This document shows, piece by piece, positions 21,902-58,239 of a stretch of 61,191 nt of DNA (position 1 is the stretch's first letter; every line of letters begins with the position of its first letter). The DNA lies in the NCBI GenBank assembly GCA_937936785.1, contig CALDDQ010000002.1, forward strand, positions 1 to 61,191. The letters run 5' to 3'. This DNA comes from an uncultured Endomicrobiia bacterium (GTDB taxonomy: Bacteria; Elusimicrobiota; Endomicrobiia; DTEH01). Below the pieces are notes generated by a model. That model searched no databases. It saw only the letters and a program-made list of their open reading frames with translations, and was not told the origin of the DNA. Position numbers and translations under genes: made by a program.

Positions 21902-23053
21902 ATGAGATTATCAGATATATTAAAGAAAAAGTTAGACGAAACAGGTGAAAATAAAGACGCACCGAAAAAAGAAGCCAAAGTATCCTTATTAAAACCTTTT
22001 CTAAAAAAAGAAGTTGTAGAAAAACTCAAGCAACAAAATTTGTTAATTTCAGTAGAAAACGATAAAAATCCAGAAATAAATAGCACAAATTCTCTCAATA
22101 TATCATTAGAACAAACTTATGGTTTATCAATAAAAAATATTAAAGAAGTTTTTACAGATTTAATTTTAGAAAAAAGTAATATTTCAATAGAAAAAATACA
22201 AGATTCTATAAGATCAATAATAAATTGTACATATCAGGACAAAGATACTATATTGTTATATTGTAATTATTCAACTCCAGATAATTATATTTTTAGTCAT
22301 AGTGTAAATGTATCTATTTTTTGTGCAGTTTTAGGAATAGAAAAAAATTTTTCTGCAGAAGAATTGTTTAATTTAGTTTTAGCTGGGATGTTACATGATT
22401 TAGGTATGGTTTCAGTAATAAAAATTGTAAACCAAAATAAAAAATTATCAGTAGAAGAATACGAGGAAGTAAAAAAACATTCATATAATATTAACACAGA
22501 ATTGTTAAAATTAAATATTGATATTAAATTAAAAGAAAGGTTAGGTTCAATAATAAAAAATGTTCATGAAAGATTTGATGGTTCCGGGTATCCAGCAAAA
22601 CTTAAAGGGAAAGAAATTGATTTGTACTCAAGAATAATTAGTATCGCAGATGTTTATGAAGCAATGACTCATACAAGACCTTATCGCGGACGGATGTTAC
22701 CACATAATGTATTAGTAGAACTGATAAGATCTGCTCAAGAACAGTTTGACTCAAATTTAATTAAAGTTTTTATAGATAGAATTTCTTTATTTCCTATTGG
22801 TAGCTATGTAAAACTTAACACAGAAGAGATTGGGATTGTTTGTGGGACGAACAAAGGTTTTCCAATAAGACCAAAAGTAAAGATAATATTAAATTCTGAT
22901 ATGTCGGAGTCAGATCAACAAATTTTAGATCTTTCTAAAGAAAGTAAAATATTTATAGTAGAACCTGTTGATGACACAAAACTTAATATACCAGACAAAA
23001 AGTTAATGTTACGTCTTAAGTCACAATATTGGTGGGTAAAAAATATTTTTTAA
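21902..23053 (+). CDS. HD-GYP cyclic-di-GMP phosphodiesterase
   Basis: The protein has 383 residues and no transmembrane segment. Residues up to about 115 form a variable amino-terminal region. The HD-GYP domain contains the HD pair at 165-166 (GMLHDLGM), a following KKHSYN histidine, VHERFDGSGYPAKLKG and SRIISIADVYEAMTHTRPYR. The first histidine of the usual HHE triplet is Val here, but the metal-binding set is otherwise complete. A short beta-rich tail (GSYVKLNTEEIGIVCG) is common in this family. It should degrade c-di-GMP made by the two upstream cyclases. Confidence 0.9.
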   Translation: MRLSDILKKKLDETGENKDAPKKEAKVSLLKPFLKKEVVEKLKQQNLLISVENDKNPEINSTNSLNISLEQTYGLSIKNIKEVFTDLILEKSNISIEKIQDSIRSIINCTYQDKDTILLYCNYSTPDNYIFSHSVNVSIFCAVLGIEKNFSAEELFNLVLAGMLHDLGMVSVIKIVNQNKKLSVEEYEEVKKHSYNINTELLKLNIDIKLKERLGSIIKNVHERFDGSGYPAKLKGKEIDLYSRIISIADVYEAMTHTRPYRGRMLPHNVLVELIRSAQEQFDSNLIKVFIDRISLFPIGSYVKLNTEEIGIVCGTNKGFPIRPKVKIILNSDMSESDQQILDLSKESKIFIVEPVDDTKLNIPDKKLMLRLKSQYWWVKNIF

Positions 23054-23075: not shown

Positions 23076-23876
23076 ATGAAAGTAAATCTTAATTTTTTAT
23101 GTATTCCAAACAATGTTTTATTAAAAATATTTTTTGTTAATATAAACAAAAATTTTTATAAAAAGATAGTTTCTAATTATAAAAATTTTTTAATAAAAGA
23201 TAATGAAATAAAATATAAAAATAAAATTTTTGTTAATGTATTAAATAAAACAGATTTCAAATGTGTCTCTAAAATTTTTTATAAAAGGAAAGATTTTGGA
23301 TTATGCATTGAAAATAATAACATTTATTGTTTTGTTGAAGAAAATATTTATTCATTTGATTCTATGATGAGAATTATTTTTAGTTATGTTTTATTTTTAA
23401 ACAAAGGTTTGTTATTACACAGTAGCGGGATAGTTTATAAAAAAAATTGTTATTTGTTTATAGGGAAATCAGGAAAAGGTAAATCTACAATAATAAAAAA
23501 TATAAGATCAAAAAAAATAAAAATTTTATCTGACGAACTTGTTTCGCTTATTTTTTTTAACAAAAAACTTTTTTCGTATAAAAGTCCTTTTTGGGGAGAA
23601 CTCGGTCGTCAAAAGAAAATGTTAAGGTTAGAAAACACTAATAGAATATTTGAAGTTAGAAAAATATTTGTGTTAAACAAACATACAAATTTTTTCAAAA
23701 TTATAAAGTGTAATTATATGGAGAGAACGAAACATCTGTTAAAAAACAATCTCTGTGTGTTGAAATCCAATTTGTTAGGTGGAAAAGTTTTATCAACAGT
23801 AGTAAATATCGTAAAAAAAGATATGTTTTATAAATTAAATTTTAACAAGAACTTTCTTGTAGAGAAAATTATTTAA
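23076..23876 (+). CDS. HPr-kinase-like P-loop protein of a peptide-maturation cassette
   Basis: This 266-residue Lys- and Asn-rich protein has a Walker A motif GKSGKGKST at 130-138, preceded by LLHSSGIVY, and SDELVSLIF at about 152-160. This is the pattern of HPrK/PEPCK-like proteins that occur beside PqqD and radical SAM genes in ribosomal-peptide modification clusters. Their exact role is not established; phosphorylation of a substrate or leader is a guess. The amino-terminal 100 residues are not recognisable. No Shine-Dalgarno sequence is visible. It is followed after 29 bases by the PqqD gene. Confidence 0.7.
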   Translation: MKVNLNFLCIPNNVLLKIFFVNINKNFYKKIVSNYKNFLIKDNEIKYKNKIFVNVLNKTDFKCVSKIFYKRKDFGLCIENNNIYCFVEENIYSFDSMMRIIFSYVLFLNKGLLLHSSGIVYKKNCYLFIGKSGKGKSTIIKNIRSKKIKILSDELVSLIFFNKKLFSYKSPFWGELGRQKKMLRLENTNRIFEVRKIFVLNKHTNFFKIIKCNYMERTKHLLKNNLCVLKSNLLGGKVLSTVVNIVKKDMFYKLNFNKNFLVEKII

Positions 23877-23905
23877 TTTATTTATTCATTTAAAAATGAA
23901 CAAGA

Positions 23906-24154
23906 ATGAAACTAAAAAAAAATCTTGCTTACAGAAAAATTGATGGAAAAATTTTTATAGTAGATATGAAAACTTCCATGTTGCATAGCGTAAATGAAAT
24001 TGGTAGTCTAATAATAGATTTATTACAAAAAAACTATAATTTTAATGAAATTGCACAAAAGATTGTTCAAGAATATGATGTTAATATTGAGGATGTTATT
24101 TTAGATATAAAAAATTTTGTGTCTATTCTTAGAGAAAAAAAGTTGATTGAATAG
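23906..24154 (+). CDS. PqqD-family peptide chaperone (RRE)
   Basis: The 82-residue protein has the PqqD fold signature. Strands such as YRKIDGKIFIVDMKTSMLHS come first, then VNEIGSLIIDLLQKNYNFNE and a helical end VILDIKNFVSILREKKLIE. Free-standing PqqD proteins bind the leader of a precursor peptide and present it to a radical SAM enzyme. The radical SAM gene begins 9 bases downstream. Length and order (kinase-like, PqqD, radical SAM) match known cassettes. Confidence 0.85.
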   Translation: MKLKKNLAYRKIDGKIFIVDMKTSMLHSVNEIGSLIIDLLQKNYNFNEIAQKIVQEYDVNIEDVILDIKNFVSILREKKLIE

Positions 24155-24163
24155 TTTGTTAAT

Positions 24164-25156
24164 ATGAAAGTTTCTGAAGAAATTTTTAATATTACATTTC
24201 AAAAAAGAATACCTCTATATACAACCATAGAAATAACTTACAAATGTAATCTTAACTGTATCCATTGTTATTTACCTGAATATTATAAAACAAAAAAAAC
24301 TATGACTACTGAAAAAATTAAAAATGTAATAAAACAAATTAAAAACTTAGGTGGTTTATACATTGTATTTACTGGTGGAGAACCGTTAATAAGAGAAGAT
24401 ATTTTTGATTTAATTAAGTATGCCAAAGGACTAAATTTTGTAGTATTACTTTTTACAAATGGAACTTTAATTGATGAAAAAGTTGCACAAAAACTAAAAT
24501 TTTCCGGTGTAGACAAGGTGGAAATAAGTTTTTATGGTAGAGAAATAGTTCACAACAGTATTACTCTTAAAAATGACAGTTATAAAAAAGTAGTTTGTGC
24601 AATAAGATATTTAAAAAAAGAAGGTATAAATACAGCAATAAAATGTCCTATAATGGAAATAAATTATGACGAGTATGTGTATTTACAAGAATTTGCAAAA
24701 AATAATTGTCTTGAAACAAAGTTTGATTTTGTTTTAGTGCCTAAAAATGATGGAGATTCCACACCACAAAAATATATGATATCACAAAAAAAAATAAAAG
24801 ATTTTCTTCAGAAGATAAAATTCAACCATAAGAAAAGTTTAGATTTAATATCAAATTTAATTTGTTCTGCAGGACGAAACATTGTTGGTATAACAGCTGA
24901 TGGAAAAGTTTATCCATGTCTACAATTTTCGTACAAAATAGGTGATTTAAATAATCAGACTTTTAAACAGATTTGGTTTTCAAAAAAGTTTGAACAATTA
25001 AACAAACAAAATATTGATAATTATGTAGAATGTAAAAGTTGTGATTTGGTGTCAGTTTGTAATCGTTGTCCTGGTGTGGCATATGTTGAAACTAAAAATT
25101 TTTATATGTGTTCTTTTACAGCAAAAAGGTTAGCTAAAGTTGTGCAAGAAATATGA
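24164..25156 (+). CDS. Radical SAM/SPASM peptide-modifying enzyme
   Basis: The 330-residue protein has the radical SAM cluster motif at C28, C32 and C35 (TYKCNLNCIHCYLPEY) and the FTGGEPLIREDIF loop. A SPASM region follows, with CSAGRNIVGITADGKVYPC near 238-256, then CKSCDLVSVCNRCPG near 293-307 and a last Cys in MCSF. Such enzymes bind extra iron-sulfur clusters and form thioether or carbon-carbon crosslinks, epimerise residues, or modify side chains in peptides. The adjacent PqqD and small Cys-containing precursor support a peptide substrate. The reaction type is not predictable from the sequence. Confidence 0.88.
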   Translation: MKVSEEIFNITFQKRIPLYTTIEITYKCNLNCIHCYLPEYYKTKKTMTTEKIKNVIKQIKNLGGLYIVFTGGEPLIREDIFDLIKYAKGLNFVVLLFTNGTLIDEKVAQKLKFSGVDKVEISFYGREIVHNSITLKNDSYKKVVCAIRYLKKEGINTAIKCPIMEINYDEYVYLQEFAKNNCLETKFDFVLVPKNDGDSTPQKYMISQKKIKDFLQKIKFNHKKSLDLISNLICSAGRNIVGITADGKVYPCLQFSYKIGDLNNQTFKQIWFSKKFEQLNKQNIDNYVECKSCDLVSVCNRCPGVAYVETKNFYMCSFTAKRLAKVVQEI

Positions 25157-25222
25157 TTTGTGTGACAAATATCACAAGGATAATTTGTTGACTTGAAAGG
25201 ATATATTTTATATAAAACAAAA

Positions 25223-25378
25223 ATGAAAAAAGAAAATTTAAAAAACAAAAAAATATATCAAAAACCTTCAATCAAATCTGAAAAAATTTTTGAAACAGCA
25301 GCTCTTGCATGTGGAAAATGTATTTCAGGAAATCCAATTTTTCGTGGACAGTGTAAACAAGTTCCCCGATTGTCATAA
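25223..25378 (+). CDS. Candidate RiPP precursor peptide with Cys-rich core
   Basis: From ATG 25223 the frame gives 51 residues; an upstream in-frame TTG is less likely. A Lys/Asn-rich leader ends with YQKPSIKSEKIFETAALACG, a pattern I associate with precursors next to PqqD and radical SAM genes. The core-like tail CGKCISGNPIFRGQCKQVP has three cysteines and no other obvious motif. It lies 66 bases downstream of the radical SAM gene and 57 bases upstream of an S26-type peptidase. Leader binding by PqqD, modification by the SAM enzyme, then cleavage is the likely sequence. Size, composition and position support this, but homology is only by eye. Confidence 0.7.
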   Translation: MKKENLKNKKIYQKPSIKSEKIFETAALACGKCISGNPIFRGQCKQVPRLS

Positions 25379-25435
25379 GAAAAAAATTTTAAATAGGTTC
25401 TACAAGATAAAAAATCAGTTAATGATTATAAAACT

Positions 25436-25768
25436 ATGTATATAAAAACTTCTGGTGGTTGTATGCGTCCGCTGATAAAAAGTGGACAGGTAGTTTACAT
25501 TAAAAAAACTAAAAAAATTAAGTTAGGAGATATAGTATTATATAGGTTAGGGGATAAAAATTATTTACATAGAGTTATTAATATTGACAAAGATGAATAT
25601 ACAGTTTATGATGATACAAATATTACATCTCCAGTTAAAATATATTTAGAAAATATAATTGGTTCATATCCAACAGTTTTTAGTGGTTACATAGGTTTTT
25701 TATACCATAAAATTATTTTAAAAATTTTTTTTGTCTGTAGAAAGATAATAAAATTTCATATAAATTAG
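25436..25768 (+). CDS. S26-type signal peptidase-like protein with Cys in place of catalytic Ser
   Basis: The 110-residue protein aligns with the S24/S26 peptidase core. The box normally read as (G)xSMxP is TSGGCMRPLI at residues 5-14, followed by KLGDIVLYRLGDKNYLHRVI, where the His of LHRV occupies the general-base position of Ser-His type signal peptidases. The expected nucleophile Ser is Cys9, encoded by TGT at 25460-25462. A hydrophobic segment near the end (YIGFLYHKIILKIFFVC) could anchor it. It may mature the precursor peptide or the secreted neighbour. A Cys-His protease, or a peptidase inactive as a serine protease, are the two readings. Confidence 0.72.
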   Translation: MYIKTSGGCMRPLIKSGQVVYIKKTKKIKLGDIVLYRLGDKNYLHRVINIDKDEYTVYDDTNITSPVKIYLENIIGSYPTVFSGYIGFLYHKIILKIFFVCRKIIKFHIN

Positions 25769-25811: not shown

Positions 25812-28800
25812 ATGAAAAAAAATAGAAACAATATTTTTTATATTTTTGGTGCAATAATTTTTTTATTTCAAGGGCATACTTTTTGTGCAACAAGAATAAA
25901 AACAGTAGAATGGAATTTTGGTGGCAGGTATTTAAATACTAATTTAGCCAGCGGGACAGCATTTGTATTCCCTACCCGGACAATAACACTTCCTGAAAAT
26001 GGAAAGAATATTCGTTCTGCATGGTTAGAATTTGAAGGAATGGCATGTTCAGCAGCAAACATTACATCTTTGACAATAAGATTTGATCCCGGGCCAACAG
26101 CTTCAACTATAAGATTAAATACAGGACAAATTACAACACAAACAGGTGAATCAGTAAAACTTTATGCCAGAGCAGATGTTACATCTATAGTTTCGTCAAC
26201 ATTTTCAACTTTAGGTACATCACGCAATTTTACTGCTTCAGTAACTATAACAGGACCTACTTCAAATTCGCATACTTTAAAGTTATATGTTACATACGAA
26301 TACGATGACACATCCCCAGTACAGGTAAAAACAGTTAGAATACCGCTATATTCTGGCACAAACATAGCATCAACACTTACAGGACAACCTGTCCCCGGGA
26401 CATATTTATTAAATTATTATCCTTATTTACCCGAGTCAGGGATAAACATTAATCATCAATGGTTTGAAATTCGTGGGTTTAGACAATCAAATGCTACTAC
26501 AGGCAATGATACACTTATAAGAGTAGGCTTACCTGGTCAATTACCTGGTGCAGAGATGACTTTTGATAATTCGTTAATATGTTCATATGACTTTTTATAC
26601 ATTTCTTCTTCCAATATAGTTCCTGGATTTTCTTATACAACTTTACCATCGGAAGTACGTATTGCAACAGTTACAGCAAGTTTAGCTGCTGGTGGAGCAC
26701 AAAATCCGCACATAAACATTCTTGGAGGAGAGTGTGTTATAACTTATACATATACAACTTCTACTACAAAATTGAAAACTTTGCAATACATTTTAGGTCA
26801 GTCAACAGGGACTTCAGGATATTTTGAACAACCAGTGTATTTTGAAGAAGGAAATGTTACAATTCATAGAATTTATGCACAAATTCGTGGTTCATACAAT
26901 TCTACTACTGCAGGGACAAAACAAATTTCATATAAAATTGGTAATTCTCCCACAACAACAAGAAATTATACTTTTCAGGTTACCAACGCACAAATTTCCG
27001 GGTTTGTATATTATTTAGATTTAACAGAATATTCATCATTTTTGTTAAGTGGTTCTACGGTGACAATTTCTTGGCCACATCTTACAAGTTTAGGTGGTTG
27101 TGGTGTGAATTTGATTATTACCTATTCATATACAGATGAAAATAAATGGACAGATTTTTATCAGATTTATGCTGGTCAGGATACTTCTATGACTGTAGAA
27201 AACAATTTTACTCCAGAACACAATTTTAAACTTTGGTTTCCAGATTCAGAATATCCTTTAGGAAGAAAAAATTTGTTATCTGCAGGATTGTTAATGAACT
27301 GTATTGTAACAGGAGGAGCTTCAGGAACAATTAACGCAAATTCGTTAACTACGCAAAGAATAAATTTTCAAAATGAACAGATAGTTCAACATATGCATAC
27401 TACAGAAGGTTATTCTGGTAGTGTTTTATATAAAGATATAGGACAACTCACAACGCTTACCTCAAATGCTACTTCACAATATAGTCAAACTGCTGCCGGA
27501 AATAGAACAGAACAGTTAGTTACAACTGACATTGTTTTTTTTACTTATTCATATTTTCCCGCACCGAGTACTCCAACAGTTTTAGGACAATACAAACTTG
27601 ATGATATAACATTTATCAGTACTGGTAGTTGGATAAACCAAAATTCTATAGTGTTAAAATTTAATATGTTTTCAAAAATAGCAGATAATCTAACACCGGT
27701 AGTAGAAGTTAAACCTATTGGACAAAGTTTTAATGAAACGAACCTTTCTACAGGGACAACATTAAATTATCCAGGTAGTGGCATAGTTTTAGGTTCAGTG
27801 ACAGTTTCAGGTCTTGCTAACGGTACTACTTATCACTGGCGAGCAAAAGTTTTTTCGCCGAACGGAAGTTCATTATGGCAAAGTTTTGGTGCTAATCTTG
27901 AGTCAGAAGCAGATTTCGGGATTGATTTATCTTCTCCAATAGTTAATTTAGTTTCTCCAATAAACAATTTTGCAACAAACCAGTTTGATTTAACTTTTAC
28001 TTGGGCAGGGACAGATTTTCCTTCAAGTGCAAATTCTGGGATAAAAAATTACAATATACAAATTTCTTCTGACACAAGTTTTAATATAATTAATATTTCT
28101 TCAATTACAAATTTACAAATGATATCTTTTAGTTTACCATTTCAAGCAACATATTTTTGGCGAGTTAGAGCAGAAGATAATGTAGGCAATATTGGTAATT
28201 GGTCAGATATATGGTCCGTAACAGTAGATACCACAGGACCTTCGATGGTAGATGAGTTAACAAGTCCGATAAACAATTATACTACAAACCAAGTATGGAT
28301 AACATTTAGTTGGGTAGAGGTAGAAGATAACATCTCAGGAGTAGAGAAATATATATTAGAGATAAGTACAGATACTAGTTTTGGAGTGGTGAAATATAGT
28401 AGTGATACGAAGAACACGAGTGTAGAGATACCAATTTTTCAAGGGATATACTTTTGGCGAGTAAATGTTGTAGACAAGGCTTCTAACTATACAATATCAG
28501 ATATTAAATATAACCTGTTAGTAGACATTTCTGGACCAAAAATTGTTGACTTGCAACCTGGTGATGATCAATGGCAAAATTTTGGTGGGAAATACTATAA
28601 TGTAGAATTTTATGAAACAGATTTTGGTGATATAGGATTAAATTCAATAGAATATGCGGTTTCTACTACGACAAGTTTGGGTTATCCATTAATAATTAGT
28701 TGGACAAACATAATTTCTCCACCTATAAACCAAAATTCTTATACAATCCCGTGGCAGATAAATTTTTCTCCATTATTAGAAGAAGTTACAAACTATGTTT

Positions 28801-31800
28801 CAGTCCGTGCAAAAGATTTGTTGGGGAATACTTCTACATGGTTAGATATTTTTTATATAAAAAAAGACATTACCAATCCTCAAATTATAAATAACCAATC
28901 AGGCGATACAGTTTGGCGAAAAGAACAAAAACAAGATGGTTACAACGTAGATTTTGAAGATTCTGGTGGGTCATTGTTGAACAAAGCACAGTATCGTGTA
29001 GTAAAATATTTATTAGATGGTACAACACAATATTTAACTAATTGGATAGACATTTTCAATTCTTTAAATAGTAATAGTTATACATTAAATTGGGATGTAG
29101 ACTTTTATTCTCTAACTGAAGGGACTAATTATATCTGGACACAAGTTATTGACAATGCTACAAACATAAAAATTTATAAAGATACTTTTTTTATTAACAA
29201 AGACACCACAGCACCTGTTTGTGTAAACAATCAGACAGAAGATAACGAATGGAAAAATAGTAATGACACATTTTATAACATAAATTTTTACGATTCTAAA
29301 AGTGGCAGTGGAATTAAAGAATTTCAAGTTTTAGTTTCTACTAATTTAGGTGGTGAGATAAACTCTGACTATTTAATTGGTTGGACAACAGTAGTCGATA
29401 CTAATACACATAGTTTTACAGAGTTATGGTCGTTACCACAACAAGTTTGGGATTTGATACCTTCAAGTAGTAAAAAAAATTATGTTTCAGTTAGAGCGAT
29501 AGATTTTGCATATAACACTTCTACAGTTTTAACTGATGCATTTTATGTTTTAAAAGACACAGTTTCTCCAAGAATAGTTGATTTGCAAGAGGGAGACGAT
29601 ATCTGGCGCAGGTTTGGCGGGACAAGTTATAATGTTAACTTTTACGATTATGAATCACAACTTCGTGGTGCACAATATATTGTTAGGACAGGTCCTAATA
29701 AAACATCTCCATCTTGGTCTCAAGGTTGGGTAACAATTTTTGCTTCTTCTGGGACAGAAAGTTATACTAACTCATGGACAATAGATTTTATAAATTTATC
29801 CGAGGGTACAAATTACATTTTTGTTCGTTCATCGGATACTGTTGGTTTGTGGAACGAACCTGAAAACTATGTTTTTTATGTTAAAAAAGATGTTACAGCT
29901 CCAACAATTATAAACAACCAACAGGGTGATTTTCAATGGCAAAATTCTTCAGGTGAAGTCTATGGTGTATTTTTCCAAGACACAATTTCCGGTGTAACTA
30001 CTGCACAGTATCAAATAAAAGATGGTCAAGGAAATGTTTTAATTGATTGGACAAACATTTTTGGTGGGACAACTTCGTATACAAATTATAACTCTTCCTG
30101 GAGTATTACAGAAGCAACATTTGTTTTGTTGTTAGAAGGTACAACAAACTATGTTTTTGTTAGATGCAATGATGCAGCAGGAAATTTTAATTCGTTACCA
30201 CAACCGGCATTTTTTATATTAAAAGATTTAACTAAACCAAATATAGTAGTTAATCAAAATTATTATAAATATTCACATCCAAACTGGTTTGTAGATGTAT
30301 CCTTTTTTGACCCGACTATACCAGGTCATCAGCCTGGCTCGTCCGGGATAGATTATGCCCAGTATACAGTTTATGATTTACCACAATTAAATGGGAATAT
30401 GATAATTGATTGGACAAATATCTCAGGGTTAAATTCTGGGTCTACGTATTACACTGACGGATGGAAAATAAATTTTAATTCTTTGCCAACATATACAACT
30501 ACATATGTTTCGGTAAGATTATTTGATTTTGCAAGAAATGTAACTTCTTATATTGATGCATTTAGTGTTTATAGAACAACATCTAATACTCCTATAATTA
30601 TTTCAAATGAAAATGAAAGTTATGTATGGTATAACTCAAGCACAACTTTTTTACAAAAATATTTTGATGTAGATTTTGTAGTAGAATACGAATCATTTTT
30701 ATCTACTATTACAGCAGTGGTTCATTCTGACACGCTTGGTTTTGGAGAAAAGATTTTAGATGAAACAATAATAATTTCAACTTCAAATGTGATAAATTAT
30801 ACAGACAACTGGCGTTTAGCTGCATCTACGATTTCACCTGATTATTATATTTGGGAAAAACTTAAGAACGGGATAAATTATGTTACTTTAAAAGCATATG
30901 ATGTTTCTGGAACAAGCACAACTTTATATGACGCATTTTTTATTTTAAAAGATACAGAAACACCTTCAATACCAATTTTATTATACCCAATTAACAACTT
31001 TACAACAAATGTTTTTAACTTAACATTTAGTTGGCAACAATCTTTAGATCTTATTTCAGGGACAACAATTTATACTTTTGAAATTTCAAAAGAACCAACT
31101 TTTTCAAACATAGAATTTTCTTCAGTTACAACTTCATCAAACATTTTGTTATCATTATCATCACAAAACACATATTATTGGCGAGTCCAAGCACAAGATT
31201 TGGCTGGGAACAAATCTGCTTATTCTTCTACATTCAAACTTTGGGTTGATACAACTACACCTACTTCTGCAATATTATTATTGCCATCAAGTGGGACTGT
31301 TTCTAACACACTTTTACAAACTTTTAGTTGGACATCTTCAGTAGACGATTTTTCTGGAGTAAGAAACTACACAGTACAACTTTCTACAGATAAAAATTTT
31401 TCTTTAATAACATTTTCATCTACAACGACAAACCTTTCAGCCACTATTTTTACAAGACAAAATTTATATTATTGGCGGACAAGAACAATTGATCGTGCAG
31501 GAAATATTATTTATTCTACACAGTCATTTACAATTTTGATTGACACAACTTCGCCTTCAATACCAAACATTACCTTTCCATTAAACAACTATACAACAAA
31601 TCAAATGGTAATAACTTTTATTTGGGAAGAATCTGATGACAGCAATTTTCGTGGAGGTTCTGGAATAAATGGTTATGAGATATATATTTCCACGAGTGCA
31701 GAATTTAACATTTTTGTGTCATCAAAATTTGTTACTACACCGTATGCAGAATTTAGTTTAAATTCTGGTATTTATTATTGGCAAGTTCGTGCAAAAGATA

Positions 31801-34800
31801 ATGCTAAAAATTATTCGTTGTTTACTGAAAACTATACTTTAATCATTGACACTTTTTCGCCAACAATTTACAATAACCAGACAGGTGACAACCAATGGCG
31901 TGCTGGTCCGGGGACAAAGTATAATATAGATTTTGAAGATAAAATTTCAAAGTTAAATACAATACAATACTGTGTTTATACTTTACCAAACCAAACAGGA
32001 CAACTGGTTAAAGATTGGACCGTTATTGCAGAAAATATTAACGAAACTTTTTATGGGACAGATTTTGAGTTAGATTTTAATTCTTTGTTGGAAGAAGTTA
32101 CAAACTATGTTTCAGTTCGTGTATGGGACAATTTGATACAATTTACAACGTATTATGACATATTTTATGTTTTAAAAGATGTTACAAAACCGTCAATTTT
32201 AAATATTCAATCAGGGGACAATGTATGGCGTAAAATTAACAATGGCGAATATTCAATTTTTTTTGAAGATTCAGGTGGGTCAAAGTTACAAAAGTTTGAT
32301 ACAAAGATTATGTCCGGTATACTAAATTCTGGTACTACTATCCAAGATTGGACGACTAACAATACTACAATATTAGGCACAACTTTTTATTATAATTCCT
32401 GGCAACTAAATTCTGACACATGGAACTTGTTACCAGAAGGAAAATCTTATGTTTCAGTAAGTGTATTTGATAATTCAATTTCAGGTTTAGGATATAACAG
32501 AGATACTTTAACAGATGCATTTTATGTATTAAAAGATACTACTGTTGCAATAATTATTAATAATCAACAAGGCGATGTCGTATGGCGAAATTTTAATTAT
32601 ATGAAATATGATGTTGATTTTATGGATACAAGTTCAGGGTCTGGAATAGAAAAGTTTGAGATAGCAGTTAGTAGCAATCAGTTAGGTACAAATTATATTG
32701 ACTGGACAATAATTGAAACTACAAATACACACAATTATTCTAACGATTGGTCTTTACCTGAGAACGTATGGAACCAGTTGTTAAACGAAGTTACAAATTA
32801 TGTTTCAATTAGAAGTTTTGATTTTGCGGGCAATGTTTCAACTTTTACAAACGCATTTTTTGTGTTAAAAGATACTATATCTCCAGTAATAATAAACAAT
32901 CAATCAGGCGATAATGTGTGGCGTAGAACTAATAATGGAACGTATAATGTATCATTTTTTGATACTGGTGGATCTAAGTTGAACAAATTTCAGATACTCG
33001 TTTCTACAATAGGTTATGGTGTTGCACCATACATTTTTAATTGGAAAGATTCAGGGACACAAATTTCAGGGACAACATTTTATGTCCAACCGTTTCAAAT
33101 TACAAATAACGATTTTACACTTTTATATTCAGGGACAAACTATGTTTCTATCAGAGTAACAGATGTTGCAGGGTCAACTACAACATTGTTAAACGCGTTT
33201 TATATTTTAAAAGACACTCAAGGACCAATAGGTGTAGCAACATCACCCGCATATTCAGCCGTAGAAAATTTTAATGTTTCATATACTGCTTATGACAACG
33301 GTTTTTCAGGAATAAAAGAAGTAAAATTATATTATACTACACAAACCGATCCACCGTATACTTACACACACTATATTACCACAACTTCAGTTCAGATACA
33401 ATTTGTAGCAATCTCTGATGGAAAGTATGGGTTTAGAATAGTTGTATATGACAATGCAAACAATACTGACGAACTTGATCCACCGTTATCAACTATAGCA
33501 CCGGAAACAGTTACACAAGTTGACACTTATGCACCTATTGTTAACAACCAGCAAGATGGAGACAATATCTGGCGAAAAGAAGCTAAAGATACTGGTTATG
33601 CGGTGTATTTTAACGATTTAGGTTCAGGATTAGATTCTGCACAGTATATAATCAAAGAATCAGATGATGTTAATAGTTTAGTAATAAAAGATTGGACTTA
33701 TATTTTTCAATCTACAAAAGTTTCTGCCTATAATCAGAACTGGCATATAGATTTTAACAGTTGTAAATCGTCATTTAATTATATTTCAGTTCGTGTATGG
33801 GATTTAGCAGGTAAAACTACTACTGTTAACAACATATTTTATGTAAAAAAAGATACTCAATCACCTACTATAAGTTATAACGAATTTTTTAATGGCGGGG
33901 ACAACATTTGGCGAGCTGGAAGTCGTAGTGGTGGGTATGACGTAGATTTTTATGATGAGTTATCATATCTTTCAAAAGCAGAATATAAAGTTGTAACAAG
34001 TTCTTTTGATATAGATTCTGGCACAATAATTGATTGGACAAACATTGCAACAGCAATTTCTTCACCAAGTTATGTCCAAAACTGGCAAATAAATTTTTTG
34101 CCTTTGGTAGAATATACAACTAACTATGTTTGGGTAAGATTAACAGATATAGCAGGTAATGTTTCAACTTATTATGCGTTTTATATTTTAAAAGATACAA
34201 CTCCTGTAACAATTGTTAATAACGAGTTTGGAGAAGACAATGTTTGGCGAAAGATTTCAAGAAGTTATAACATAAATTTTTATGATTATAAATCTAAAAT
34301 TGACACAATTGCTTATAGACCGTATGCATCTGTTAATGGTTTAAACCCGTTGACAACGTTCTGGCACACGATAGCAGTTTCACCGTTAAACTTAGAAAAG
34401 TACGAATTACCGTTTGAACTAAATTTTGATTTATTACAAAATGGGACAAATTATATTGCAATTCGTGCAACAGATTTTGCAGGTAATACTACAACACAGT
34501 TTGACTTGTTCAAAGTATTAAAAGATCAATTAAATCCGGAAATTATAAATAATCAGATAGGGGATAATGTTTGGAGAAAAGAGAATAATGCATTTTATGA
34601 TATAGATTTTAAAGACTTAGAATCCGGTGTAACTTATTTTCAAACTGTAATATATTCAGGTCCTAACTATTCAGGAGAAGAACTTGATATTTGGCGAACA
34701 ATAGATTCTACAAATACAAAATTTTATGTCCAGAACTGGAAACTTAACAATGACACTTTTGACAAATTGAACCCGGGAATAAATTATGTTTCAGTTAAAG

Positions 34801-37800
34801 TTTTTGATAATGTTGGCAATAATACAATTTTAACTGATGCATTTTATGTAAAAAAAGATACTTCTCAACCTATAATTGTTAACAACGAAGTAGAAGATGA
34901 AGTTTGGTATAATTATGGTAGAGAGTACGATGTAGATTTTTATGACAATCTTTCAGGTATATCAAAAGTTGAATATTCGGTATACTCTGACAATTATCAA
35001 TCAGGAACACAAATTGTCGGGTGGAAAGAAATTTTTTCTGACCAACAAGGAGTTTCATCATATGTAACTAATTGGCAAACAGATTTTGCTTCATTACAAC
35101 AGGGATACAATTTTGTAACAGTTAGGAGTTATGATGTTGCTGGTAATAGTAGTATAGAAGATGTTTTTTATATAAAAAAGGATACCGTTACACCAACACA
35201 AATCACTAATTTGGTAGGGGTAACAGGAACGAACGAAGGAGAAGTTGTTCTACAATGGACAACTCCGTCGGATAATAATGGTAGCGGGGTGAAAGATTAT
35301 ATTTTAAAATTTGCAACTTTTGTTATTACAGAAACAAACTTTGATACAAATGAAAATGTTCGTACATTTACGCAATTTTGGGTACCACAAACAGCAGGAA
35401 GTTTGGATATGCAAACAGTTACAGGATTGACACAGGGAAAATGGTATTATTTTGCCTTAAAATCAATAGATGCAGCAGGAAATGTTTCGTTATTAAAACT
35501 TTCCAACAATGTGCAAGCAAAAGTGGATACAGTTTCACCAAGACAAGTAACAGATTTTACTGCGGTTCGTGGAGGTTTTACCGGATTTATAGATTTATTT
35601 TGGACTGCACCTGGTGATAATGGCAGTTTAGGAGATTTAGTAGGGACAAACATTGAAGGTGAGAATTATTATGGTTTTTATAGAATAAGATATTGGGAAA
35701 ACATAAATCCGGGGACAAATTTTGATACACCAGGATATGCTCAAATTGATAATCCATTTATTCCTTCTGCGGTAAATTCTTTAGAATATTATACTTTAGC
35801 TGGATTAAACTATCAGTCAACATATTATTTTATGTTACGAACATTTGACAAAGCAAACAATTTTTCTACTTCAAACTCTACATTTTCAGTCCCAGCAGAA
35901 CCAGGGGCCGCATCAGGTCATTTAGTTTGGGGAAGACAATCGTTGACAACACCGTATGTTAGACAATGGTCTCCACCAGCTTGGATGGCAATTAGCACTT
36001 TACCAGTGGCAAGTTCTACAATTAGATGGTCAAGGATGGTTTCAGCACCAAAGTTAAGAAATGAAAAAATTGCTGGATATTTATCTGGCAATGCTGCTGC
36101 TGGTAGTGGACGGTTGTATTTACAACGGTATGATGGTACTTCTTGGACAAATATGTTAGGACAGATAAATTCTACAAACATAGATGACAGATACCGTGCA
36201 TTTGATATTGCTTATGAACAGAATTCAGCTCGGTGTTTGGTTGTTTATTATAATGGAGCAACGGATCGAGTTCAATATCGTGTTTGGTCTTCAACAGCAC
36301 AGATGTGGGTTGTCGGAGCAACAGATTTTATACTTCCATCGTCAGCCAGTGCAGTGAACTGGGTACGACTTGAGCCAAAACCGGATTCAAACCAAATAAT
36401 GCTTGGCGTTTTGCAAGCAAATAACAATATTATTTGTACTTTGTGGGACGGAGATACAAACCAGTTTTTATCCGTAAGCACTTACGTGGTTACAACTGCA
36501 GCATCAGTAGTTACCACACAATGTTTTGATATTGCTTGGGAACACCAATCAGGCAGGTGTATGATAGTTGCAGGACTTACAAATGCAAATTATGCAATAT
36601 ATTCTTCCACAGCGAACCAATGGGTAGTGCCAACAACATTGTTAGTTCCTTCTAATTCTGCAAACTTAAATGATGGTCAGGGTAATAGATGGATAAAACT
36701 TGCTTCTGACCAAAAGTCTAACAAAATTGCTTTAACAGTTATAGATGGAGGTGCTGATTGGAACGTATGTATTTGGGATGGTAATACTTGGGGAATAAGA
36801 CCTGCGGAAGATTCTGCCATGGAAACAAGTTTAAGAAGATGTACAGATGTTGCCTGGGAAAAAGATTCAGGTAGATGTATAATTGTTGGTGGAGATCTTA
36901 ATGCAAGAGAAATTTCTTTTATTGCATGGTCAGAAACATATGGTTGGCATAATCCTATAACGGGTACTGCGACAACACCGTTGGTTGCACCGAAAACACC
37001 ATCAGGAACTTTAGCATTGTTAGGAGATATTAACTGGTTAGGACTTGTTTCTGACCCGAACAAAAATCAAATGGTTTGTTATATAATAGACCAATCAGCA
37101 CGGTTAACTTCTATAAACTGGACTGGAACAGTTTGGGGTGGGGTAGAAGTTCATGAAACATCTGTTTCTGATGCGACAAGAGAATGTGCGATGCTTGCTT
37201 TAGACAAACACGATATTATTCCACCACTTTATGTTGATAACCAACCAGGAGATGATGTATGGCGAAATATTAACGACGGTAGTTATAACATAACATTCAA
37301 TGATGTAGGAGGGTCATATTTAAAAAAATTACAGTTAAAAATTACCACTGGCACTTCGGAAAATTCACAGACAGTTGTTGACTGGACTGACAACTTATAT
37401 TTCCCTGATCAAACAAATTCGTACTCAAGTTTGTGGACAATAAACTCTACTATTTGGCAAACAATGACAGAAGGGTTAAATTATGTGCATATAAAAATAT
37501 TTGATGGTGTAGGAAACACTACCGTTGGCGAAAATGTTTTTTATATCAGGAAAGACACAACTGCACCGACTGTTGTACAACAACTTATACCAGAAGATAA
37601 TTTTGCTACAAACAATCTGACACCTACTTTTGTATGGGCGGGATCTTTTGATGGTGTTTCTGGAATATTAAATTACGAGATTCAAGTTTCTACTGATGTA
37701 AACTTTAATGTTTTAACCACTTTTGCAGATACAGTTACAACTTATTATGTTCAACCCAACCCGCTTGAATCACAAAGATATTTTTGGCGAGTTAGAACAA

Positions 37801-40800
37801 AAGATGTTGCAGGAAATGTTTCTCAATATTCTGATACAAGGACAGTAATAATTGACACAATTCGGCCAACTATTGTTAATAGTGTGGTAGGAGATTATGT
37901 ATGGCGCAATTCTTCCGGGACATTTTATGATATAAAATTTTATGATACAATATCTAATCTTGCAACTGTATATTATCAAATATGGAGTTCTACCAACCAG
38001 TCAGGGACAAGAGTTGTTAATTGGACAAATATAAATTCTTTGTTAATAAACACAACATATTATGAACCTTTGTGGACAATTTCGTCATCTACATGGTCAT
38101 TGTTACCTAATGGGACAAGTTATGTAACAGTTCGTGCAGACGATTTAGCTGGGAACACTACTATTTGGACTGACGCGTTTTTTATCAAGAAAGATGTTAT
38201 TGCACCTAATGTTCCAAACCTAACTACTCCATTGAACAATTTAGTCACAAACCAGATAAATTTATTATTTAGTTGGTCTGAAGTGCAAGATATTCACTCT
38301 GGTGTTAGTGGGTATGACCTTTTTATTTCTACATCGGTAGATTTTTCTGTATTTGTTTCTTCACAATTTGTTTTGATATCTAGTTCACAAATTAGTTTAT
38401 ACGAAGGAAAATTTTATTGGCGTGTTAGAGCAAAAGATATTGCACAGAATTATTCTTTTTGGACTACAACTTGGTCTGTAACAATTTCTACAACAAAACC
38501 TACAACTCCTGAATTATTATTTCCTTTGGACAATTATAAAACAAATAGTTTGCAACCAGTTTTTTCTTGGGCAGAATCATATGATATTACAGGTATAATG
38601 GAGTATAATATACAAATTTCTACTGATATAAACTTTGGCGTGTTAACAGATTTTGTTTCTTTGACAACTACATATTTTTTCCCGCATATTGGTTATAATA
38701 CAAACAGATATTATTGGCGAGTTAATGCAAAAAACTTTGCTGGTACATATTCCAATTGGTCAACTACAAGAACTTTTATAGTAGATTTATTTTTACCAAC
38801 AATTGTGAACAATATGTTAGGTGGTGATAATGTGTGGAGAAACATTTCAGGGACAGTTTATGATATAGATTTTTATGACGAAGGTAGTAGTAATATTGAT
38901 ATAATAGAATACAAAGTTCACAGTTTAACAAACGAGAATGGCGTTATGTTAATTCCATGGACAACCATTGCAGGACCAGGATTAAACACAACTTATTACA
39001 TAGACAACTGGATGATAAACTTTGATTTGTTACAGAATGGTACAAACTATATTTCAGTTCGTGTAAAAGATTTATCTGGAAACACTTCTACGTATCTTGA
39101 CGCATTTAAAGTTTTAAAAGATATAATAAAACCAACCATAAACAATTTACAATTAGGCGATTTTACTTGGCGTAACAGCAGTGGTACTTTATACAATGTA
39201 AAATTTAACGATACTGGTGGGTCAAATTTGTCCAAGCTACAAATTTCTATAAGTAGTGCACCCTTAAGGGTGCACTACTTGTTTGATTGGGCAGATTTGT
39301 TAACAGAGATAAATTCAGATTCATATCTCACTGGCTGGAGTATTGGAACAAACAATTTTGATTTGTTATATGAAGGAACAACAAATTATGTTTCAATAAA
39401 AATTTTTGATTTAGCTGGTAACACTTCAACTTGGATTGACGCATTTTTTATTTTAAAAGATACTTCACCGCCTTATTGTATAAATAATGAAACTATAGAT
39501 CGTGGTTGGTTTGCTGAAAATCCTGGTTCTATTTGGGACATAGATATTTATGATAAAATTACTGATAATAGGATTCCCGGTAGTTCAAAACTTAATAACA
39601 TATTTTATAGAGCAAAAAGTTCTACGGGTGGGATAATAATTGACTGGAAACCTATTGCAACATATTTAAACACAACATATTATATAACAAACTTTGAATT
39701 AGATTTTGATAACATAACCGGTGGGATAAATTATATTGATATTTTGGCAACAGATTTTGCTGGTAATACTACAACATACTTAAACGCATTTGTAGTAAAA
39801 AAGGATACTACAGTTCCAATAGTAGAGGTAGGTTTTGATACTACAACTGTTACTTGGATTAATTTTTCACAGTTTTATGATATAAATTTTCATTCAAGCC
39901 AGAATGTTTTAGATACAATACAATATACAGTTTATTCTGGTCCAAATTTTTCCGGCTCAACACTAATCCCCTGGACAAATATAGGTATTCCACCATTGAA
40001 TGTATATTCTTATACCACAGATTTTGCACTAAACTTTGCTGCATTACAAAATGGTGGGACAAACTATGTCAGTGTTCGTTATTGGACTGTAGCAGGTAGA
40101 ACAACTACTGTTACTGATTTGTTTAGAGTTTTTAAAGATGTATCTGTTCCATCAATAGTAGACAATGTTGTTGGAGATGACATAGTTTGGCGAAGTTCTA
40201 ATGTTGTAATTTATAATGTTGATTTTTTTGATTTACCAACTGATGGAGCAAAAATAAATAAAATAGAACTAAAAATAACTTCAGGACCTTATTATACTGG
40301 CTTGTTGTACCAAGATTGGAGTGAAGAAATGTTAAATTTGGGCACGACTTTCTATACTGTAGATTGGCCTATAAAATGGGAAACATTTAATAATATGCAA
40401 CAAGGTTATAATTATGTTTCAGCAAGAGTTTACGATTATGCAGGAAATTATACTGAATTACCTGACATATTTTTTGTATTAAAAGATACAACTTCTCCTA
40501 CTATAGATAATCAACAGATTATAGATAATTTCTGGAGGAAAGAAAACAATGGTATTTATAATGTAAACTTTGCAGATTCAGGTGGGTCAAAATTATCACG
40601 GTTTGAAGTAAGTTTTGCAACTGTAAATATTCAAGGTTTAACTTCGGAGACATTGTTTTGGACAACAGTTTATTATGGAATAAATTCTGACATTTTTGAC
40701 ACTGATTGGCAGATACCAAATTCTGTCTGGGAAAAAATGTTTTCTCATACAACAAATTATATTTTTGTACATGTTTTTGACAACGCAGTTCCATCAAATT

Positions 40801-43800
40801 CTTCTCAAACACTTAGTTCAGTATTTTATATTTTAAAAGATACCGTTGCACCAAATATTATAAATAACGAAATAACTGATCGTGGCTGGATAAAAACAAA
40901 TCCTGGTCCTGTCTGGGATATAGATTTTGTTGATCCATTTTTGCACAATTCAAGGTTAGATACTGCGCAATGGAGTGCCTTTACTGGACAAAACCAAACC
41001 GGTCTTAATGTAGTTGATTGGACAGAAATTTTTGTAGATACTAAAGTTGTGTCATACAACCAAGATTGGGATTTAGAAAATTACAATTTTTCATTACTTG
41101 CAAGTGGAACAAATTATGTGTCAGTTAGAGTATGGGATATATCTGGAAATACTGCGTCAGTAAAGGATGTTTTTATAGTAAAGAAAGATACTTTTGGACC
41201 AATGATAACTAACAATGTTGCAGGCTACGATGTATGGTTGAATAGTGATCCTGGTTCTATATGGAATGTTAGTTTTAAAGATGAATTATCCAAACTCGCC
41301 AGTGGATATTATATAATTTATCCTACTACAAATCTTAACGGGACCCCATTGACAAACTGGACAACAATATTTACTTTTGTTCAAGATAGAAGTTTATACA
41401 ACACAAACTTTTCGTTATTAACAACACATTTTGATTTATTGCCAGAAGGAACAAGTTATCTAACAATTACTGCTTATGATAACTTAAACAATCAGACAAC
41501 TTATTATGACATTTTTTATATTCGTAAAGACACAACTGTTCCATATTGTGTAAATAACCAATCAAACATTTATGCAACAGCACAACAAGATTTGTTTGAT
41601 ATAGACATAGACTTTTATGATTTAGGTGGTTCTAAAATTGATTATTTAAGATATACAATACGTCCGACACCACAATTGCCTGCAGAATATATTATTAACT
41701 GGACAGGTATCCCAAACATTTTAGATGGGTTAAACACTACCTATTATACAACAAACTGGTCTTTAACATCAGTTTATAGTTTGTTACCAAACAATACCAC
41801 TTCTTATGTTTCAGTTTTATGTACTGATTTTGCCGGTAATACAACAGTTTTTATAGATGCAATTTTAATATACAAACAAGCGTTAGGCCCGTCAATAATT
41901 GTAAACTTTAATTCAGAAGAATTACCTTGGTATAACACTTTATTAGGTCAGAGTTTTGATGTTGATTTTTATTCTAATTCAGGGCAAGCATTAAACTATT
42001 TTGAAATAAAAATTACTACTGGAATGTATGAAACAGGAAAATTAGTTTCCGACTGGGAAAAGGTAGAAGATATATTAGCTGCTACATATACTGACAATTG
42101 GACTATTACTGAGGAAAAATTTAATTTGATGGAAGAAGGAATAAATTATGTCCATATAAGAGTATTTGATTTAGTTCCAACATCTGCCACTTTACTTAAT
42201 GCGTTTTATGTTAAGAAAGACACAGTTGCACCAGTAATTGAAGATTTGCAAGAAGAGGCCACATTTTATTTGAATATTTCAGGGATTGGTTACAATGTAA
42301 ACTTTTATGATGAAGGTTGTGGAATAGAAAGAGCAGAATATTTAGTTTCATATTCATCTACAAATCCATTAGGAACAATAATTATTCCCTGGACAACGAT
42401 ATTTAGTGGTTTAGCAGAAAAATCTTTCACTACTAACTGGCAAGTAGATTTTGATAATTTACAAGAGTGGGCAACAAATTATGTTTCAGTAAGATGTTAT
42501 GATGTTTTAGGACATTTAACTACAAGTTATTCAGTTTTTAGTATATTAAAAGACACCACTCCACCTTCAATAGTTTATAACTTTATGCCACAAAACAGTT
42601 CTATGACGAAACAACAGGTTATAACTTTTGAATGGACAGAATCAGAAGATAAAACTTCTGGGGTAGACTTTTACCAACTAAAGATTTCTACAAACCAAAA
42701 TTTTGTCCCAATATATTGGAGTACACAAGTTTTTACAAACCAAATAATATCACAAATTTTACCTTCAAACACTTATTATTGGCAAGTTAGAGTTAAAGAT
42801 AAAGCAGGAAATTATTCTCAGTATTCTGATTATTATACAATTTTAATTGATACTATTTCACCTTTGACTGCGACACTAATTTCTCCGTTAAACCAAACAA
42901 CTACAACACAGTTTAATATAACATTTAATTGGTCTACTGTTTTAGACATAGGACCGTCTGGTATTAAGGGTTATGAAATTTATATTTCAACAACAACTGA
43001 TTTTTCTGTTTTTACTTCTTCACAATTTACTAACTTAACTAACCAACAATTTAACTTGTTAGAAGCAGAATATTATTGGCGAGTTCGTTCTGTGGACAAT
43101 GTCGGTAACTATTCACAATTTTCTACTACCAGGTCTATAATTATTGACATTTCTGCACCGACAATTTCAGGGACAGATTCCAGTGGTACTACAGATGTTG
43201 TTTGGAGAAATGTTTTAAAATCCGGTGGGTATAACGTTACATTTCACGATTTAGGTTCAAAACTAAAATCTGCCGAATACATAGTTTACGCTGAACCAAA
43301 CTTATCTGGTGATTTGCGTAAATCTTGGACTGCTATATTTACTAATTTAAACCAAAAAGATTTTGTTTCTAACTGGAACATAGATTTTTCTGCACTAAAA
43401 GATGGTGGGACAAACTATGTTTCGGTGAGAGTATCCGATAACTTGTTACAAATGGCAACTTATTATGATATTTTCTTTGTAAAGAAAGATGTTACAAAAC
43501 CTGAAATGATTAACAATATGCCAGTAGGCAGCGACATTGTATGGCGAAATATTGACCCGGGCAATATCTACGATATAGATTTTTATGATTTACCCAAAGA
43601 TGGTTCTAAACTTGGAAAAGTATTTGTAAAAGCTATGAGAGAAACATTATTAAATGGTGCAACGGTTTATGATTGGACGGAAATTTTAGATTTAACGACT
43701 TTAAATACAACTTTTTATAAAACCAACTTTGGGATAGATTTTAACAATTTAGTAGAAGGTAGAAATTATATTTCATTAAAAGTTTTTGACCAAGCGAATA

Positions 43801-46800
43801 ATTTTGATCAATTAATAGACGCATTTTTTGTTCAAAAAGATACAACTGCACCGTTGATAACAAAAAATTTTACTTGGGATGAACAACGATGGTATGCAAC
43901 TTCACCGTTTATAGATATTGATTTTATTGATACAAATCCTGGTAGTGGAATTAAAGGGTTTGATATTTTAATTTCTACAGTTGAAACTGCAGAACCTATA
44001 TTAGTTCCATGGACAAATGTTATAACAACAAACACGTTAATTTTTAACACCGATTGGCAAGTTAATAAAAACATTTTTGACCAGATGGTATCAGGTACAA
44101 CAAATTATTGTTGGTTAAGAGCATATGATTTTGCAACTAATACAACTACAATAATGTACCCTTCAAGTTATGTTTTTGTGATAAAAAAAGACACGGCAGG
44201 AGTTATGATACAAAATAATGAACCCGAGGGAGAAGATAAAATTTGGCGTTCAACAAACACTGTAAGATCTTATGATGTAAACTTTTATTCTTTGGGTAAG
44301 TCAAATTTATCTAATGCACAATATGTTGCGTATTCAGAAAAAAATTATTCTGGAATACAAATTTTTGGTTGGACAGATATTCCAGGATTTATTCCCGGAA
44401 CTACATATTATGAAACTAACTGGTACATATCAGATCCAGAGTTTAACCAACTTTTTGATGGTGCAACAAATTATATTTCAGTTAGATGTTGGAATCTTGC
44501 AGGAACAACAGTATCACTATCAGACGTATTTTTTATAAAAAAAGATACCACAGCACCTTCAGTACCAGTTTTAACATTTCCGACAAACAATTTTGCTACA
44601 AACTATATGACGATAAATTTCTTGTGGCAAATATCTTCAGATCTTGCTTCTGGAACTTCATCATATTTGTTACGAATTTCTACTGACACAAATTTTACAG
44701 TTATCCAGATATCTTCTCAAACCTCAAATACAAGTTTAACAATTAATTTATTTTCTGAAGGGACTTATTACTGGAAAGTTAATGCTAAAGATTATGCAGG
44801 TAATAATTCAGAATATTCCACAAATTTTGTAGTGATAATTGATACCACTTCACCACAGCAGACAACTTTAATAAATCCTCTAAACACAACAACTACAAAT
44901 TATACTAACATAATATTCTCTTGGTCAGAAGTGGAAGATTTTGGTCCTGCAGGTTTGTCTCATTATAAAATAGAAATTTCTACAAAAGAAACTTTTGTGT
45001 CTCTATTTTATTCCAGTGTAACAAAATTAAACAGTATAACTTGTGACTTACAATTTTCTTCCACATATTATTGGCGAGTATTAACATTTGATTATGCATC
45101 AAACTATTCATCAAGCAACATTTATTATTTAATAATTGACACAATTGCACCTTCAGTACCGATTATTGTTTCACCAATAAACAATTTTGCAACAAACTAT
45201 TTAGAGATTACACTTACATATTCTGCAGAAGACATTGGTCCTTCGGGGATAAAAAATTATTTTGTAGAAATCTCTACAAATGATAACTTTACAATTTTGT
45301 GGTTCTCAACAAATACCATTTTAACTACTTATACAACAACTTTTGTAGAAAACATTTATTATTGGCGAGTAAAAACTTTAGATAACGCTGGAAATTTTTC
45401 AATTTATTCTTCAACAAGATTGTTTATAGTAGATACATCATCGCCACAACAGATAGGTTTAATTTTACCATTAAATGATACAAGAACAAACCAAACTTTA
45501 ATAAATTTTACGTGGCAGGAAGGAACAGATATAGGTTATTCTGGGATAAAAAGTTATGCACTACAAATTTCTACAATAAGCAGTTTTGATATAATATTTT
45601 ATTCTTCATCTACCACAGAACAATCATTGAACTACAATTTTTCTTTTGATGGAATTTATTTTTGGAGGATAAAAGTTTTAGACAATGCAGGAAATTATTC
45701 TATTTCTGTATCATCTGAAATTACTATTGACACAACTGTTCCGTACATATTTAATTTTCAAACCGGAGATGATAACTGGAGAAGTTCTCCCGGGACAAGT
45801 TATAATATATATTTTTATGATGCTCCTTCACCATATGGTTCAGGATTGTTAAAAGGAGAATATATAGTTTATAACTCAACTAATTCAGATGGTACTTTTT
45901 CTGGCTCACCACTAACTTCTTGGCAAACAATATTCCAATATTCTTTACCTACAAGGACAACATATTATGAAACTTTGTGGAACATAGATGATGTTTTTGG
46001 ACAGTTATTGCAAGGTGTAAACTTTGTTTTTGTTCGCAGTTCTGACATTGCAGGAAATTTGTTTGTACAACCAACCTATGTTTTTTATGTGAAAAAAGAT
46101 ACTTCTTCACCAAAGATAATTAGTTACGAACCTGAAATTCCTCAATGGGACAATTCTGCAAGATTTTACAATATAGATTTTACAGATGATGGTATAGGAG
46201 TAAAAATTGCTTCTTACACAGTATATTCAGGCCTGAACTTTAGCGGTGTGGAACTTATCCCGTGGACAACAGTTTTTGTTCTTGAAACAGAAAAACAATT
46301 GTATGATACAGATTGGAGTTTAAACTTTGATTTATTAGTTCCAGGGACAAATTATATTTCTTTATGGTGTGAGGATGGGTTGTCAAATATAACTTCATTA
46401 ACAGATGTTTTTATAGTGCTTAAAGATACAATTCCACCAAATAACATCACATATTTAACAAGTTCACCGGGTAATTTGGCAAAAACAATATCTTTGTCCT
46501 GGACAACACCTTCTGATGATACAATTGCAGATGCAATAAATGTTAGATTAAAATCGTATCTTGTAAAATATAAAACTTCACAGTTTAGTGACATTACTGA
46601 CTTCTTTATTACAGGGACAACATTTTATTTTTCATCATCATCAGAACCTTTTACCACAGAACAAATAACAATTACTGGTCTTATAGAAGGGACTACATAC
46701 TGGGTTGGAGTTTTACCACAGGATAAAGCCGGTAATTATTCGTTAACAGTTGCCACAACATCTTCTTGGTCCCGTCGTTTTGCTCCGGCAAAAATTACAA

Positions 46801-52310: not shown

Positions 52311-52370
52311 AATTTTATTTTTGTAGCAGCCAAATTTTTTTATTTAATAATGAGTGTTGGTATTAAGATA

Positions 52371-54959: not shown

Positions 54960-55061
54960 CAAAAAATTTTAGGTTAAAGATAATTAAAAAAGAGAAATTA
55001 TATTATGATAACAATAAAAATACAAGAATTGAAGTATAATTTTGAATATAGAAATTTAGAA

Positions 55062-57515: not shown

Positions 57516-58239
57516 AAAATAATATTGATATAGGAAAAAATATAATAGAATAAATCAATACAACTGTTAAACTATGAAAATCTATTTTGGTGTTACTGTC
57601 TAAAGACGACCTTAAAAAGTTTAATGCATATGTTGTTGGCAAAAGTAAAGAAATATTTTGTAAATATTTTGGTAGTTCAGTAATTGAAAAATATATACCG
57701 CTTAATAGATCTATTAAACTTATAATCAACCAACTAAGATTTTCTCCTTTTCGTACATATATTGTAATCGATGCAAAAAATATTCCAAAAGGTATAAATA
57801 ATATGTTAAATATGGTTAATATAATAACAATTATGATTATTTGTAACCAGGTAAAATATAGCCCGAGAAAATTAGCAAATATTAAATAAAAAATAGTTTC
57901 TATAAATAAAAATAAATATTTTGGTATTATAGATATGATAAAAATAATAAATTCATTGTAAGGTAACAATATTAGATTTTCAATTGTTTCCCAATACTGT
58001 TCTTGTCGAATAATTTCATTAAATGAAGTAAAAGAATAAAACACACTTCTTGAAAACAATATTCCAATAAATAAAAATTCAAAATATTGTGGTGAAATAA
58101 GTTTGCACAAAAAATAAAATATTAATAGTTGAAAAATAACAGACACTGTTCGTGACAAAAAACCTAATTTATAAGATTTTTCTATGTAAAACTCTTTTAA
58201 TAAAAAACCTAAAATTAAATTTTTAATAGATTTTAACAT
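57463..58239 (-). CDS. ABC-2-type transporter permease
   Basis: The 258-residue protein has about six transmembrane segments, including VSVIFQLLIFYFLCKL, FLFIGILFSRSVFYSF, IISIIPKYLFLFIETIFYLI and IIIVIILTIFNILFIPFG. The ABC-2 feature LPTTYALNFLRSSL lies near 201-214. It forms an exporter with the ATPase gene directly upstream, whose end it overlaps by 17 bases. Its own end overlaps the nucleotidyltransferase gene on the other strand by 53 bases. Substrate could be the modified peptide or a surface polysaccharide component. Confidence 0.8.
   Translation of the reverse strand: MLKSIKNLILGFLLKEFYIEKSYKLGFLSRTVSVIFQLLIFYFLCKLISPQYFEFLFIGILFSRSVFYSFTSFNEIIRQEQYWETIENLILLPYNEFIIFIISIIPKYLFLFIETIFYLIFANFLGLYFTWLQIIIIVIILTIFNILFIPFGIFFASITIYVRKGENLSWLIISLIDLLSGIYFSITELPKYLQNISLLLPTTYALNFLRSSLDSNTKIDFHSLTVVLIYSIIFFPISILFFKHVLKVLLKKGSLGVY

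Follow-up and report, generated by a model that had tools for sequence, protein, structure and literature searches.

Some lasso peptide precursors carry a C-terminal serine that HPrK homologues phosphorylate, with a sugar added to the phosphate by a nucleotidyltransferase (PMC8498205). Lasso peptides of these phosphorylated and phosphoglycosylated kinds, such as paeninodin and pseudomycoidin, combine a PqqD-type RiPP recognition element, a YxxP leader motif and an HPrK-like kinase with a C-terminal Ser, and their loci also encode a nucleotidyltransferase and an ABC exporter. Recognition elements that read W/Y/LxxP motifs include FusE, McjB, PqqD and StsC (PMC12710340). HPrK-like, PqqD-like and radical SAM proteins are found together in SynChlorMet cassettes, and sactipeptides and ranthipeptides share a SPASM radical SAM enzyme and a Cys-containing core. 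Signal peptidase I and Sec11 (S26) and LexA (S24) have a common fold and a Ser-or-Cys/His active site. Each of these systems shares features with the locus described here, which comes from the Elusimicrobiota, a phylum reported to be rich in huge proteins (PMC11573180).

The DNA analysed, hereafter the window, is a stretch of 61,191 nucleotides from an uncultured Endomicrobiia bacterium. The original prediction was that an HPrK-like kinase, a PqqD protein, a radical SAM/SPASM enzyme, a small precursor and an S26-type peptidase lie in one direction at 23076–25768 and run into a 26.5-kb gene; from this a modified, secreted peptide was deduced, and a role in surface life or cell contact was suggested. 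All five genes were present, on the + strand, followed by the large gene. The genes considered here are:

21902..23053, + strand: HD-GYP-domain gene (predicted c-di-GMP phosphodiesterase), the upstream partner; NosR-family model 3e-20, below cut-off
23076..23876, + strand: HPrK-like kinase; ScmC 6e-4 and HprK_rel_A 0.003 for the window protein
23906..24154, + strand: PqqD-type RiPP recognition element; Pfam PqqD 1.5e-11, above cut-off
24164..25156, + strand: radical SAM/SPASM peptide maturase; Pfam Radical_SAM 2.4e-25, SPASM 1.1e-13
25223..25378, + strand: precursor peptide, 51 aa; 54 distinct homologues
25436..25768, + strand: S26/S24-like peptidase; signal peptidase I, archaeal type, 2e-11, below the curated cut-off
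25812..52310, + strand: giant exported protein, 8832 aa, 26,499 bp; signal peptide, N-terminal domain conserved in 25 genomes
52350..54959, + strand: beta-propeller protein with a T9SS type A sorting domain; TIGR04183 33.4 bits, cut-off 23
55005..56639, + strand: PorV/PorQ-family outer-membrane protein; NF033709 125.5 bits, cut-off 90
56649..57515, + strand: NTP_transf_5 nucleotidyltransferase; Pfam 2.5e-21
57463..58239, - strand: ABC-2 permease, candidate peptide exporter; Pfam ABC2_membrane 1.1e-12
58223..58885, - strand: ABC ATPase, partner of the permease; ABC_tran 2.6e-25

Intergenic gaps within the cassette were 9–66 bp, and 43 bp separated the protease gene from the giant gene. Promoter and terminator scans gave nothing better than shuffled sequences. 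Two more genes with GGDEF-like C-terminal signatures (domains read by eye) occupied positions 19222–21857, immediately 5′ of the HD-GYP gene.

The 51-residue frame is not a chance reading frame: relatives carry it too, next to their radical SAM genes. The precursor profile matched 54 of 341 genomes of the phylum, spanning 13 families, and 13 of the 96 genomes of the window's class; the prediction, which had been staked on this conservation, thus withstood its own test. Family f3, although represented by many genomes, gave no match, and searches of viral contigs and plasmids did not turn up the precursor. A YxxP leader motif, exactly three core Cys, a CxxC (shared as CxKC) and a C-terminal Ser were present in all 54 distinct precursor sequences. 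The second and third Cys were 9–11 residues apart, the core was 21–23 residues long, and seven residues followed the third Cys in all but one sequence (53/54). Among the 52 parsed precursors, the residue at position −1 to the first Cys was Ala in 51 and Gly in one, and that at −3 was Ala in 50, Ser in one and Thr in one. Signal peptidases follow a rule of small residues at −3 and −1 of the cleavage site. Since the residues before the first Cys fit this rule, and the adjacent protease belongs to that family, we placed the boundary at A29|C30; the window precursor would then consist of a predicted leader M1–A29 with a YxKPxI motif and a predicted core C30–S51, CGKCISGNPIFRGQCKQVPRLS. A lipobox reading of ALAC was rejected on account of the Leu at −2 and the lack of a hydrophobic signal region.

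The locus has both a short precursor conserved beside a maturase and a PqqD-family recognition domain, as expected of a RiPP with a recognition element and a radical SAM/SPASM maturase. In 17 homologues of the radical SAM enzyme, the CxxxCxxC motif and the auxiliary-cluster Cys 234, 252, 290, 293 and 302 were invariant, and C299 was nearly so. Close relatives of the gene occurred in each of the four remaining genomes of the window's family and in further genomes of the class. A wider contig scan with the protein returned only a 26% match, in Cyclobacteriaceae. The CxxC-x(9–11)-C pattern of all precursor copies would also suit a metal- or iron-sulphur-binding regulator that undergoes no peptide modification. 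We consider this very unlikely, given that PqqD and SPASM radical SAM genes adjoin the gene of the small protein, and that a YxxP leader motif and an ALA site would be of no obvious use to such a regulator.

It is extremely improbable that the cassette belongs to a named type, such as SynChlorMet or the phosphorylated lasso peptide clusters, and membership of either is not supported. The resemblance consists of weak matches to the ScmC, ScmD, ScmE and lasso PqqD models and of a kinase accompanied by a nucleotidyltransferase, as in pseudomycoidin. However, all model matches lay far below the curated cut-offs (ScmC 19.2 vs 125 bits, ScmD 15.3 vs 100, ScmE 85.8 vs 400). The nearest NCBIfam models of the PqqD protein, WgkC (1e-8) and lasso PqqD (1.2e-7), were also below theirs, and no NCBIfam model matched the precursor. 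The cassette has a single radical SAM gene, inspection of its genes showed neither a lasso B2 nor a lasso C gene, and a search of the 54 cores for the conserved acidic residue (Asp/Glu) of a lasso ring found none. In place of the lasso protease and cyclase it encodes the radical SAM enzyme and the S26-like protease, and it adds a three-Cys core and an adjacent giant exported protein. Compared with sactipeptides and ranthipeptides, it has in addition a fixed three-Cys pattern, a kinase and a signal-peptidase-like protease. No described family with the same gene combination was found in the libraries and papers searched.

Support for the HPrK assignment was firmer in the family than in the window protein alone: HprK_rel_A matched 7 of 15 homologues (best 2e-8), and the top ScmC match among family members was 8.7e-8. 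Kinase residues H115, G130, G135, K136, D153 and E154 were conserved, with the spacing seen in the lasso kinase BsfK (PMC10368454). The Ser-kinase catalytic set (His, Walker A, two Asp) is complete in the window kinase except that the second Asp is replaced by Glu. The substrate of characterised relatives is the C-terminal Ser of a lasso precursor; the kinase is therefore predicted by analogy to phosphorylate the invariant terminal Ser of the precursor. In three genomes (G007, G010, G202), no kinase gene lay beside the cassette or radical SAM gene, and a homologue was encoded elsewhere in the genome. No kinase was found in G206 and G209, whose contigs begin just upstream of the PqqD gene, nor in the two genomes without the precursor and radical SAM set that were tested. 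A single ORF in one locus (L083:9092-11116) joins an HPrK-like domain to pilin-like sequence.

Across 16 protease homologues the motifs G[GSAT][CS]MxP, GD and HR were conserved; the nucleophile swapped between Ser and Cys, and the His of HR was invariant. The nearest solved relatives by sequence were SEC11A/SEC11C (3.6e-8), and the structural model (pLDDT 93.5) had the LexA/signal peptidase fold (TM about 0.6). Nucleophile, His and fold are thus those of S26 peptidases. In contrast to signal peptidase I/Sec11 and LexA, the protein has no N-terminal membrane segment and no hydrophobic stretch ahead of the active site, some members have a Cys nucleophile, and in four genomes it is fused to an exported protein. 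Its C-terminal helix was amphipathic in most members. L037, L040 and L041 each encode a protease–giant fusion with the protease placed before the giant's signal peptide, and in L095 the protease precedes the signal peptide of a different exported protein. The protease–giant junction of L041 has no candidate start codon; those of L037 and L040 have candidate start codons nearby. As the fusion order puts the protease before the signal peptide of the exported protein, it is probably cytosolic, and is predicted to differ in this from S26 enzymes that are membrane-anchored with the active site outside.

The fusions, and the position of the protease gene next to the giant gene in the window, might instead mean that the protease serves the giant specifically, as its signal peptidase or processing factor, and that something else processes the precursor. 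We regard this as unlikely, since a fused protease that precedes the signal peptide would be expected to remain cytosolic, at a distance from the site of signal cleavage, and since the N-terminal membrane segment of signal peptidases is missing. Moreover, the protease gene of family f16 is placed between the precursor and radical SAM genes, and the conserved ALA before CxKC suits the specificity of the protease family. Our prediction is that the protease is the leader peptidase of the precursor; proteases of this type are absent from a review of RiPP leader proteases (PMC10885120).

Most loci of the class, and those of families f18, f19 and f27, had the gene order HD-GYP, HPrK, PqqD, radical SAM, precursor, S26, large exported protein. 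The order in f16 was HPrK, PqqD, precursor, S26, radical SAM, usually followed by a large exported protein; HD-GYP was absent and pilin-like genes lay upstream. The set of G005 was split, with HD-GYP, kinase, PqqD and radical SAM genes on one contig and precursor, S26 and giant genes on another. An HD-GYP homologue lay directly 5′ of the cassette in L031-L035, L037, L038, L040, L041 and L044, all of them loci of the class, and also in L091, L092 and L094. The link to an HD-GYP gene thus holds for most class loci and for f18, f19 and f27, but not for f16. Within the window's family, an ExeA-resembling AAA ATPase gene lay between the S26 gene and the giant gene (L031:8358-9194, L034:7074-7778) or just after S26 (L033:8986-9822), unlike in the window, which has none at this position. 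A gene for an Rrf2-type regulator was found directly 5′ of the giant gene in L096:10488-11033 (the only one for which the Pfam match was checked), L092:6004-6399 and L091:7454-7861.

The giant protein has a signal peptide, Ig/Fn3-like repeats, a lamin-tail domain and a C-terminal beta-propeller. Its N-terminal domain, for which a fold search gave no usable relative (TM-scores < 0.3), was present in 25 genomes; 23 of these also had the precursor, in 19 cases within about 11 kb (Fisher p 8e-19 for co-occurrence, with genomes counted as independent and relatedness uncorrected). Large ORFs were found downstream of the cassette in 29/35 loci and upstream in 18/38 (p 0.003), the upstream control being confounded by the large pilin-like genes of f16. 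By our count, 8 of 38 loci with room for one had no large neighbouring ORF.

In much of f16 the large neighbouring ORF was unrelated or barely related to the window giant, as might be expected if the peptide were an ordinary bacteriocin-type RiPP with the giant gene merely adjacent. The top NCBIfam model of the ABC ATPase (58223..58885), a lantibiotic-protection ABC ATPase (5.7e-34, below cut-off), points the same way. Bacteriocins, however, are fast-evolving, whereas the core was near-invariant across 13 families; constraint of this strength favours a fixed partner or receptor over an arms-race antibiotic. Given also the co-occurrence of precursor and giant N-terminal domain, a bacteriocin is unlikely. 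Conservation and co-occurrence support one part of the original prediction, a RiPP-type maturation locus whose precursor is genuine and which is linked to a giant exported protein; secretion of the peptide and a role in surface life or cell contact are more conjectural.

A homologue of the T9SS-sorted propeller was encoded in all eight downstream regions read, and a PorV-family homologue in seven of them. The window carries a sorting domain and a PorV-type protein in one locus, as expected of type IX cargo. PorV-family proteins are abundant in these genomes, so a PorV neighbour alone says little. Matches to the translocon protein SprA in the phylum were all below the curated cut-off. The genomes of G000 and its relatives each contain numerous PorV-family genes, and they encode distant SprA-like ORFs (about 1700-1840 aa), which together suggest a divergent type IX secretion system. 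An NTP_transf_5 gene occupied the same place in L144, L145, L146 and L147, and was missing from G001 and G007. Homologues of the ABC-2 permease were present in L144, L145, L147, L148 and L150; the ABC pair was missing from L146 and L149.

On balance, we think it likely that the product of the cassette is a short RiPP, under strong constraint, that works with the large exported protein. PqqD would bind the leader via the Y-x-K-P-x-[I/V] motif, and the radical SAM/SPASM enzyme would modify the CxKC...C core, most likely by forming thioether bonds from Cys. The S26-like protease would lie in the cytosol, tethered to the membrane by its C-terminal helix, and would then cut after A-L-A and release a core of 21-23 residues with an N-terminal Cys. 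The HPrK-like kinase would phosphorylate the invariant terminal Ser, to whose phosphate the NTP_transf_5 enzyme may attach a sugar, as in pseudomycoidin. The product would be exported, perhaps via the ABC-2 transporter whose genes close the locus; co-occurrence and fusions suggest that it acts together with the giant. A bolder reading, which we put forward only tentatively, is that of a new RiPP class: a thioether peptide that bears a phosphate or sugar phosphate on its C-terminal Ser, is released by a signal-peptidase-like enzyme of the cytosol and acts as a dedicated partner to a giant surface protein of type-IX type. The analysis offers residue-level predictions for the cut site, the phosphorylation site and the protease type. 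For the Elusimicrobiota, it points to a conserved peptide-modifying pathway tied to giant surface proteins, which recur in the phylum.
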